Shown: in pieces, positions 50,069 through 52,605 of the stretch
How the letters are laid out: each line of letters starts with the position of its first letter
Position numbering within the stretch: position 1 is the first letter of the stretch
Assembly: GCA_013289795.1 (NCBI GenBank)
Contig: JABCZH010000015.1
Coordinates: 1 to 64,000 of the forward strand
Length of the DNA stretch: 64,000 nt
Direction of reading: 5' to 3'
Source of the DNA: Acidobacteriota bacterium
GTDB taxonomy: Bacteria > Acidobacteriota > Terriglobia > Terriglobales > Acidobacteriaceae
Notes under the pieces: model-generated
What the model was told of the DNA's origin: nothing
The model's input: the letters and a program-made list of their open reading frames with translations, nothing else
Database searches by the model: none
Position numbers and translations under genes: made by a program

Positions 50069-50188
50069 GCGGCACAGTCCTCAATGCAGCCACGGCTGCT
50101 AACTCGCCTGTCGCAAGTCAACTCCTACCTACTACTTCATCAGTATGCCGTTCATTTGCACCAAACGGTTTTGACCTGAATTTGGAGC

Positions 50189-50217
50189 TTGACACGCTCA
50201 GGGGCAAGGATCAAAAT
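50189..50217 (+). promoter_or_regulatory. Candidate promoter before the PQQ-fragment/BNR/pqqA group
   Basis: Consensus TTGACA (50189-50194), 17-bp spacer, CAAAAT (50212-50217). A 7-bp inverted repeat, ATAAACG/CGTTTAT (50287-50308), lies between it and the gene at 50340 and could be an operator or leader hairpin. Confidence 0.4.
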
Positions 50218-50339
50218 TACCGTGCCTGACCGGCTGGCGTTTGCTGCAGTTCCGCAGTGCTGGTCGATCTTCCAATTGCCCCACCGATAAACGACGTTAG
50301 CCGTTTATTTCTGGACTACCCAGGGGAAGTAAGAAAGTC

Positions 50340-50708
50340 ATGAGGAACTCCAATGGAGCCGTACCCTCGGTTTCGTCCAACGGCTCAACTGGCGGGATTA
50401 TGTGGGCGGTTGAGTCCACAAACAAGAAGAACCCTACAAGCTGCCCAGGCACCCAGGATGAACCCGGAACCGACTACGAGAATATCGCGCTGCACGCCTA
50501 CGATGCGACCAATATAAGTATTGAGCTTTACAACGGCCGGGGCCAGAACCCGAACACCCCCGCCGGCTATACAAGAAAGTTCCACACGCCGACGATCTCG
50601 AACGGAAAATTCTTTGTCAGCGCGATATCGGACACCACAGCCACGCTGGGGATGGTTGACGTGTACGGGCTTTGCAGCGACACCGCAAACGGCCAGTGCC
50701 TTCACTAG
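50340..50708 (+). pseudogene. C-terminal fragment of a PQQ-like beta-propeller protein
   Basis: 122 codons resembling only the last blades of the PQQ/pyrrolo-quinoline beta-propeller family: VPSVSSNGSTGGIMWAVES, ALHAYDATNISIELYNG, FHTPTISNGKFFVSAI and final VDVYGL. Typical members are several hundred residues longer, and a TAG stop shortly upstream shows the N-terminal part is missing. No signal peptide. The next gene starts 13 bp later. It may be a remnant of a deleted gene, or a truncated but expressed protein. Confidence 0.65.
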
Positions 50709-50721
50709 GAGTTAGTCTGTC

Positions 50722-52167
50722 ATGAAAATTCGGCTTTGCTTCATAGCTATCCTTCTTTGCTTGCCGCTCTGGCAGGCAGCCGGTCAGTCTCGCTTTTCGG
50801 ATGGGCAGGCCTCCGCTCAACGCCCATCCCCCTATCAACCTTCGCTGACCTGCTCGCCCGCCCCATGTGTCTTGCCCCCCACGCTCGCCTCGGAGGGAAC
50901 GAGCTGGGTCGGCTTCGCGCCGACTGCCGCCAACCCTCATCGCCCAGGCCAGCTAATAGTCGGAAGCGAGGACGGCAATTGCGGCGAGTTCACCCAGCTC
51001 GGCTTTCACGTATCGAACGACGGCGGTTCCACCTGGAGCACCACCTGCATGGGCTTTCTGAATGAGTTCGGCAAGACGTGGGATCCCGGAGGCTCCCCCC
51101 TCGTCGGCTACGACTTGAACGGTTCGGCATACATTGCGGGCTACTACCAGTGGAACGATAACCTGATTTACAATTCTGTCGTTGGGCTGGAAAAATCAAC
51201 TGACGGCGTCACCTGGAGCACCCCGATCTCCGCCTTGGGGACCGGTTCCTCAGAGATCTCCTACGTTTCGCTTGCCGTCGACCAGAGCGCAGGCAGCCCC
51301 TACGCTAACACTGTGTACGTGCTGGGGGTAAACGACGGACCTGTTCAGGTCCTGGTCTCGCGTTCGCGCGATGGTGGCACGACCTGGAATACGGCGCAGG
51401 TGGCAGCGGACGAGCCCCATCAGAGCACAGCGGAATACGACCCCAGTCTTGTCGTGGGCAAGGATGGAACCGTTTACGCTGCCTGGATGCATTGTGTTCA
51501 GTTAGGGGAGCAGTTCTGCGCCAACAACACGGATTACATGGTGTTCTCGAAGTCGAGCGATGGCGGCGCTACCTGGTCATACCCAAGGTTGGCGATAGCT
51601 GTTCACGAAGTGCCCGGCCAGTGCGGCTGCCTCCCATTCGGAGTAATCCCAAACACTAACGTGGCCACCCTGAATACGCCCGCCCTTGGCGTGGATAACA
51701 GCGGCGGGCCGTACGCCGGACGGCTCTATGCCTCGCTGTATGAGTGGACGGGCACACAAATGCGGGTCGTTATCATTCACTCAACGGACGGCGGTACAAC
51801 CTGGTCCAAGCCCGTCCCGGTCGCCCCGCGGGGCGAGACCCACGACCAGTTTTTTCCCTGGCTTTCGGTGAGCCCGACCGGGTTGGTCGGGGTGAGCTGG
51901 TTTGACCGCCGCAACGACCCCGCCAATGTCGACTACCAGGCCTATGCTGCGATTTCCTCAGATGGCGGGGAGAGCTTCCGGCCCAACGTCCAGCTAACCA
52001 CGGCATTTTCCAATCCTTACGACACAGGGTACAACGTCGACTTCAATTTTCTGGGCTACTACGCTGGCAATACCTGGGACGGTCCCAACTACTTCGTCGC
52101 CGCCTGGATGGACACCAGCGACGGCATCAGCAGCCAGGACTACATCGGCGGCATTCGCCTGCACTGA
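50722..52167 (+). CDS. Secreted BNR/sialidase-like beta-propeller protein
   Basis: 481 residues. Signal peptide (IRLCFIAILLCLPLWQAAGQS) and about six Asp-box motifs spaced along the chain (VSNDGGSTWST, STDGVTWST, RDGGTTWNT, SSDGGATWSY, STDGGTTWSK, SSDGGESF). This is the six-bladed propeller of the non-viral sialidase fold. The catalytic Arg triad and Tyr/Glu pair of true sialidases cannot be confirmed by eye, so the role is open. It lies 13 bp after the PQQ-propeller fragment and 19 bp before pqqA, probably one transcript. Confidence 0.8.
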   Translation: MKIRLCFIAILLCLPLWQAAGQSRFSDGQASAQRPSPYQPSLTCSPAPCVLPPTLASEGTSWVGFAPTAANPHRPGQLIVGSEDGNCGEFTQLGFHVSNDGGSTWSTTCMGFLNEFGKTWDPGGSPLVGYDLNGSAYIAGYYQWNDNLIYNSVVGLEKSTDGVTWSTPISALGTGSSEISYVSLAVDQSAGSPYANTVYVLGVNDGPVQVLVSRSRDGGTTWNTAQVAADEPHQSTAEYDPSLVVGKDGTVYAAWMHCVQLGEQFCANNTDYMVFSKSSDGGATWSYPRLAIAVHEVPGQCGCLPFGVIPNTNVATLNTPALGVDNSGGPYAGRLYASLYEWTGTQMRVVIIHSTDGGTTWSKPVPVAPRGETHDQFFPWLSVSPTGLVGVSWFDRRNDPANVDYQAYAAISSDGGESFRPNVQLTTAFSNPYDTGYNVDFNFLGYYAGNTWDGPNYFVAAWMDTSDGISSQDYIGGIRLH

Positions 52168-52186: not shown

Positions 52187-52264
52187 ATGCAATGGACGAC
52201 ACCACAATTTGAAGAGATCAGCCTGAACTGCGAAATCAATTCCTACGCCAGCGCGCAGATGTAG
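52187..52264 (+). CDS. pqqA: PqqA, precursor peptide of pyrroloquinoline quinone
   Basis: 25 residues beginning MQWTTPQFEEISLN and containing the diagnostic E16-x-x-x-Y20 (CEINSY), the Glu and Tyr that are cross-linked by PqqE to form PQQ. AAAGGAG at 52174-52180 lies six bases before the ATG. The peptide length and the W-T-x-P-x-F-E-E-I start fit PqqA well. No pqqB, C, D or E is in the following 340 bp or elsewhere in the window. It is too short for usual gene callers. It follows the BNR gene by 19 bp and precedes an aldehyde dehydrogenase. Confidence 0.85.
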   Translation: MQWTTPQFEEISLNCEINSYASAQM

Positions 52265-52605
52265 GGCACCGCAGTTCCGGCAGAAGACCATGATCGAACG
52301 AGAGACGGCCATCACGATGGGTGGTGGCTCTTTTGCTGGTTCCTACGGCAGGCGAGAAGCAACCTCTCGTGCTGGTTGTGCCAATTTGACAGCGACCGAA
52401 ACAGCTGCTTCCCCCCACCCTCTTCACCCACGAGACAACCCGAAGCCGCACAACAAACAACTGCGGGGGCGGGCGAAAAGAGCTACAATTCTTCCGCTAT
52501 CCCAAGTGGCCTTTTCGGCTCGCATTTCGCACTGCTTTAGCGGGTAGTCCGCCATGGCTTGCAACCTGAGGATTCCCCGAGCGACGGATTCAGGAGGATA
52601 CCTAT
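52265..52605. other. Intergenic stretch between pqqA and the aldehyde dehydrogenase
   Basis: 341 bp. No pqqB/pqqD-like reading frame could be seen in any phase; an 85-codon plus-strand frame (52290-52547) has a low-complexity, non-protein-like content. CAGGAGG just before 52606 is the ribosome site for the dehydrogenase. Confidence 0.5.

Follow-up and report, generated by a model that had tools for sequence, protein, structure and literature searches.

PqqA, in which a glutamate and a tyrosine are spaced as E16-x3-Y20, is consumed as a substrate, one peptide per PQQ. As described in PMC12997753, PqqE cross-links a conserved Glu and Tyr of the peptide. Multiple and stray pqqA genes are already known: Methylophilaceae genomes carry 3-12 copies (PMC4109929), and in PMC11317620 the M. 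extorquens orphans pqqA2 and pqqA3 are named pqqA despite their location, and PqqA availability is stated, citing Ge 2015, to limit PQQ synthesis in Methylovorus. Here we analyzed a pqqA gene in a window of 64,000 nucleotides (the whole stretch of DNA considered), representing contig C15 of a 4.67 Mb acidobacterial genome of 33 contigs that is 99.91% complete. Its placement in Acidobacteriota rests on an acidobacterial VWA-family hit in the window (281 bits) and on a named relative, Terriglobia bacterium SRVP_32. The encoded peptide is like the PqqA of pqqABCDE operons in its length, its W-x2-P-x-F-E-E-I start and its E16-x3-Y20 pair, and the other pqq genes are present in the genome; unlike in such operons, the gene lies away from pqqB-E, as the last gene behind a propeller gene, and is one of six such copies. 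Adjacency to pqqB, found for a copy on contig C2 and not for the window gene, is the usual position of pqqA, not a defining one.

The window pqqA and its surroundings

The frame translates as MQWTTPQFEEISLNCEINSYASAQM*, with AGAAAGGAGAAAGAA preceding it, and scores above the cut-offs of both Pfam PF08042 (26.0 bits, cut-off 21.1, E 9.5e-6) and the NCBIfam equivalog TIGR02107 (27.8 bits, cut-off 20, E 1.7e-6); by these two curated models it is a genuine pqqA. The sequence-only reading had called it so from the letters, pointing to the E16/Y20 cross-link pair and to a ribosome site. Both residues proved to be kept in 19 of 19 aligned acidobacterial PqqA, and the ribosome site is present as well (Table 1). 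A chance frame is contradicted by six further intact copies in the genome, whose peptides are 84-88% identical to this one. That reading had also considered an “unusual PqqA-like peptide”, which is apt for the location only, the peptide itself being a normal PqqA.

Table 1. Features of the pqqA locus in the window.
Feature	Position	Strand	Remarks
Promoter and 5' leader element	50142..50339	+	DNA match at nine other places in the genome; nhmmer model of ten copies
Remnant of a PROP gene	50340..50708	+	ATG at leader end (by eye); open frame corresponding to about the last 120 PROP residues
BNR/Asp-box propeller protein, 481 aa, C-terminal IGGIRLH	50722..52167	+	PF13088 63.2 bits
pqqA, 25 codons	52187..52264	+	PF08042, TIGR02107; ribosome site AAAGGAG; 19 bp past the BNR stop codon
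Terminator-like hairpin, 9 pairs, then CTTTT	52307..52329	+	Possible operon end

Co-expression of pqqA with the BNR gene, already proposed from the sequence, appears likely, because the gap between them is 19 bp and promoter-like and terminator-like sites flank the pair upstream and downstream, respectively. The former reads TTGACA-17-CAAAAT (50189-50217) and is followed by about 120 bases of leader; it scored 10/12 in a promoter scan that returned 2 sites against 0.8 in shuffles. The terminator scan, weak on its own, returned 4 hairpins against 2.7 in shuffles, and a hairpin similar to the one behind pqqA also follows a relic pqqA on contig C6. The 340 bp downstream of pqqA, previously taken to be empty, hold this hairpin and otherwise one unconvincing 85-codon frame. 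An ALDH gene (52606) was set aside as a member of the unit, lying 340 bp off and beyond the hairpin. Upstream of the BNR gene, the remnant of a gene of a second propeller family, PROP, is 39% identical to residues 499-620 of the PROP protein on contig C17. Around the BNR start, 138 bp (50715-50852) are 99% identical to C5:60158-60295, a piece that sits behind an array of BNR genes on contig C5, which points to recent copying or exchange.

Judged by eye from its N-terminus, the BNR protein is probably secreted. Its top matches are to sialidases: the AlphaFold2 model (pLDDT 86) found them as best Foldseek matches (E 4e-13) with TM-scores of only about 0.45, a profile search was likewise headed by them, and in Pfam the BNR_2 domain scored above and the BNR repeat below cut-off. 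We rejected the protein as a quinoprotein, for which profile, fold and hhalign comparisons gave no support. Members of the BNR family (the window protein, L014:479-1888 and paralogs) have a CSPAPC motif near the N-terminus, and among six aligned BNR proteins of the genome five of the six CSPAPC positions and the GGIRLH end are invariant or nearly so.

PQQ genes and pqqA copies in the genome

The absence of pathway genes around the window pqqA, noted from the sequence, extends for pqqE and pqqC to the whole of contig C15, on which neither model has a match. The PQQ enzymes are indeed encoded on other contigs: pqqE (524.5 bits), pqqC (334.3 bits) and, between them, pqqD (51.7 bits) lie on C3, all above cut-off, and a pqqA-pqqB pair lies on C2, with the sole pqqA copy adjoining pqqB (the latter assigned by its place behind pqqA, its Lactamase_B_2 domain and its counterparts in other pqq clusters). 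One PQQ alcohol dehydrogenase scores above cut-off (C9, 568.8 bits); it is canonical and contains PCC, and the gene next to it encodes a product with CxxCH motifs (by eye). With these genes present, the bacterium plausibly makes and uses PQQ. The two alternatives of the sequence-only reading, enzymes encoded elsewhere or co-expression with the BNR protein, are supported in combination, the second as probable.

A search for further pqqA genes gave seven intact copies and one relic (C6) in the genome. Four of them match PF08042 at E <= 0.001 and six when the limit is relaxed to E <= 0.01; the C4 copy and the broken C6 trace came to light when the DNA of the window operon was used as a query. All eight are recovered by a profile made from 19 acidobacterial PqqA, seven of which belong to this genome. 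When 398 genomes of the host family were searched with this profile, 118 had matches, the next highest count being four. All six copies away from pqqB (the orphans) have a ribosome site and sit 19-25 bp behind a propeller gene. Those on C15 (the window), C17, C12 and C11 each follow a BNR gene at 19 bp, and those on C8 and C4 follow PROP genes at 25 and 21 bp, respectively, the C4 copy following the second part of a PROP gene that is split in two. The gene order is PROP-BNR-pqqA on C17 and C12, BNR-BNR-pqqA on C11, and small propeller (by eye)-PROP-pqqA on C8 and C4; the small propeller on C8 has a PQQ_2 match below cut-off, and the C6 relic comes after a small-propeller gene without an intervening PROP. 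The PROP genes on C4 (L139:4538-6531) and C5 (L052:5702-7839) are split over two frames, either truly or through assembly error.

Pooled over the six orphans, pS is 0.33 and pN 0.055, a ratio of 0.17 that is rough at 25 codons each, and by this measure the orphans are under purifying selection. That the orphan copies are decaying, non-functional remnants is consequently hard to believe: the C6 relic, an L13P exchange unique to the C4 copy and the remnant state of the window PROP gene would fit such decay, and against them stand the low ratio and the fact that six of the seven orphan traces have an open frame and a ribosome site. A somewhat better, still improbable, alternative is that orphan PqqA is cross-linked by PqqE and then acts as a peptide alongside the secreted proteins, for instance by binding metal. 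PMC11317620 suggests that orphan PqqA of M. extorquens could belong to a system for lanthanide uptake. The orphans of the present genome nevertheless retain the PqqA core, with 19 of 25 peptide columns invariant among five of them and the C2 copy (the sixth, on C4, adding L13P), and the genome contains no second PqqE above cut-off.

At synonymous sites the orphans differ less among themselves (pS 0.21-0.49) than from the pqqB-linked C2 copy (0.57-0.76; rough values from 25 codons). Because of this lower mutual pS and of the same 19 bp spacer in the four copies behind BNR genes, they may stem from one event. Both observations favor the view that pqqA spread as a passenger of duplicating propeller operons and was kept for general PqqA supply, the propellers being unrelated to PQQ; we consider this unlikely, although it is the most credible of the alternatives, and return to it below. 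A second genome, SRVP_32 (Terriglobia bacterium, JAIQFW01; L126, L127), likewise combines a pqqB-linked pqqA with a copy that follows a BNR gene, which suggests that both types are older than the two species. Its pqqB-linked copy is near the C2 copy (pS 0.34), and its BNR-linked copy is at pS 0.49-0.60 to our orphans versus 0.65-0.76 to pqqB-linked copies, all of these being rough values from 25 codons. PqqE was found in 15 of the 16 pqqA-bearing genomes tested, the exception at E <= 1e-60 being SRVP_32, whose assembly is possibly incomplete.

The region upstream of the window operon is itself repeated. In a DNA search, 50142-50354 (about 210 bp) matched nine other places in the genome, on C1, the end of C2, C4 (19301), C5, C6, C8, C10, C12 and C17, where the copies run into small-propeller, PROP or BNR genes (on C10 the contig ends inside the adjoining gene, and on C5 PROP follows about 1 kb further on). 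The leader stands before the orphan operons of C8, C12, C15 and C17, four of the six, and before the C6 relic; nhmmer did not find it at the C4 pqqA locus, on C11 or at the fetched PQQ loci on C2, C3 and C9. An nhmmer model of the ten leaders, which recovers these ten by construction, found no more in 143 sequences from this and foreign genomes. The leader as a known RNA was rejected, as Rfam gave no match to it, and an RNA structure is poorly supported: the window copy folds no better than shuffles (z -0.78), and the consensus fold is weak (20 pairs, of which 4 show changes on both sides). We treat it as a putative promoter/leader repeat, whose recurrence before propeller genes makes these genes a candidate regulon.

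Propeller genes beside stray pqqA

How regular the association is was counted from both sides. Among 14 BNR matches above 570 bits in the genome, four have pqqA directly after them (for one of the 14, which ends at a contig edge, the follower cannot be judged), and among 20 BNR loci of named genomes, nine of them from SRVP_32, one does (L078, SRVP_32). Because so few BNR loci carry it, pqqA is an optional last gene of BNR operons. On a tree of 25 BNR proteins, a single gain of pqqA found no support, since the five rows with pqqA need five changes; the same number was obtained in 500 of 500 shuffles. That most propeller copies lack pqqA counts against a tight tie between the two, and the many paralogous operons without it are a further point for pqqA as a mere passenger of duplication.

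Outside this genome, we fetched the surroundings of 131 pqqA matches of the family and obtained the PqqA peptide from 130 (the partial match L282 gave none). Seventy-two loci have pqqB, C, D or E at a distance of up to 4.2 kb, and 58 are stray. Of the stray loci, 41 belong to one conserved split locus, a class assigned for 38 by the peptide (E/K)EVCLNCEINSY and for three (L061, L173 and L174) by neighbors, the neighbors having been read for five of the 41 (L054, L061, L173, L174 and L176); L214 shares this peptide and was left out for its different surroundings. In the split locus, frequent in genus g7, pqqA is a single gene beside sugar-lipid (wec-like, by eye) genes. None of the 41 has PROP or BNR nearby. 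Among the remaining 17 stray genes, 11 have a PROP or BNR gene no more than 4.2 kb away, counting both strands (L055, L063, L064, L119, L127, L214, L217, L222, L237, L245 and L263) and six do not (L234, L236, L239, L240, L253 and L279), compared with six of the 72 pqq-cluster loci (L057, L223, L224, L233, L244 and L259). The difference has a Fisher p of 2.7e-6. This value is uncorrected for relatedness, several loci sharing a genus; the orphans were split after inspection, contig ends truncate some loci, and the PROP profile includes two rows (L055 and L057) taken from tested loci. The propeller gene is directly upstream on the same strand in L064, L127, L214, L222 and L245 (gaps 24-169 bp), directly downstream in L063 and L263, and further off in L055, L119, L217 and L237. 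Stray pqqA of six other genera also lie near PROP or BNR, and in L214, L222 and L245 PROP is directly upstream with no BNR gene; both facts speak against a passenger carried along by duplicating operons.

At E <= 0.01, Pfam found PQQ_2 in 5 of 14 and PF01011 in 3 of 14 PROP proteins; those PROP proteins of this genome that were scanned with Pfam gave no quinoprotein match above cut-off. The clearest single neighbor, the G029 protein, precedes the L064 pqqA and has PF01011 at 47.7 bits, above cut-off. Against PDB profiles, PROP matched BamB (E 8e-6); matches to quinohaemoprotein and quinoprotein dehydrogenases were weak (E 0.007-0.15). In hhalign, the PROP profile matched the PQQ dehydrogenase of this genome with 83.8% (E 7.9e-6), in contrast to 0.1% for the BNR profile. 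A vicinal cysteine pair is typical of PQQ-dependent alcohol dehydrogenases, and the 14 PROP proteins contain neither a CxxCH motif nor, beyond the N-terminus, a Cys pair. Compared with the quinoprotein alcohol dehydrogenases (TIGR03075, PF01011), PROP thus shows a remote profile match over 304 columns, without the vicinal Cys pair and the haem motif, so that it is best read as a remote relative of quinoproteins with putative PQQ binding. An AlphaFold2 model of PROP from four sequences was unusable (pLDDT 34.9).

A proposed role and its relation to known systems

The six stray copies suggest a cofactor supply tied to secreted proteins. We favor, as probably correct though far from secure, the reading that they supply the single PQQ pathway with additional PqqA as substrate and are co-expressed with secreted, possibly PQQ-using, propellers. 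In the window, the shared promoter would drive a unit of leader, PROP remnant, BNR gene and pqqA, the last having a ribosome site of its own from which PqqA would be translated. The single PqqE, with PqqD, would cross-link the peptide at E16 and Y20, and PqqB and PqqC would process the product to PQQ, all four being encoded elsewhere. Because the six orphans sit behind propeller genes, precursor supply would be tied to propeller expression and rise, and PQQ with it, when the propeller operons are on. The most economical reason for such an arrangement would be that part of the co-expressed secreted proteins, namely the PROP family, use PQQ. The bolder proposal that PROP, and perhaps BNR too, are secreted PQQ-dependent enzymes of a new acidobacterial family, with a copy of the precursor gene in their operons, is, in our judgment, doubtful.

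The precursor genes follow members of large families of apparently secreted proteins of soil bacteria. Should the link prove functional, it would point to candidate new quinoproteins and to a simple cofactor-on-demand control; if PROP enzymes use PQQ, synthesis of the enzyme would also yield the substrate of its cofactor, and pqqA would become a genomic marker for finding quinoproteins. Since genes of 25 codons are easily missed, similar links may be overlooked elsewhere.

Among the papers listed by full-text literature searches, with subscription literature largely outside their coverage, none described pqqA behind secreted-propeller genes in Acidobacteriota. What appears to be new is therefore not the number or the stray position of the genes, and lies in their placement behind secreted-propeller genes, partly with a shared leader. 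As in methylotrophs, several pqqA genes accompany a single set of the other pqq genes, with copies away from the cluster; unlike in methylotrophs, the host is acidobacterial, the orphan pqqA stand behind propeller genes, and four of the six share a leader.
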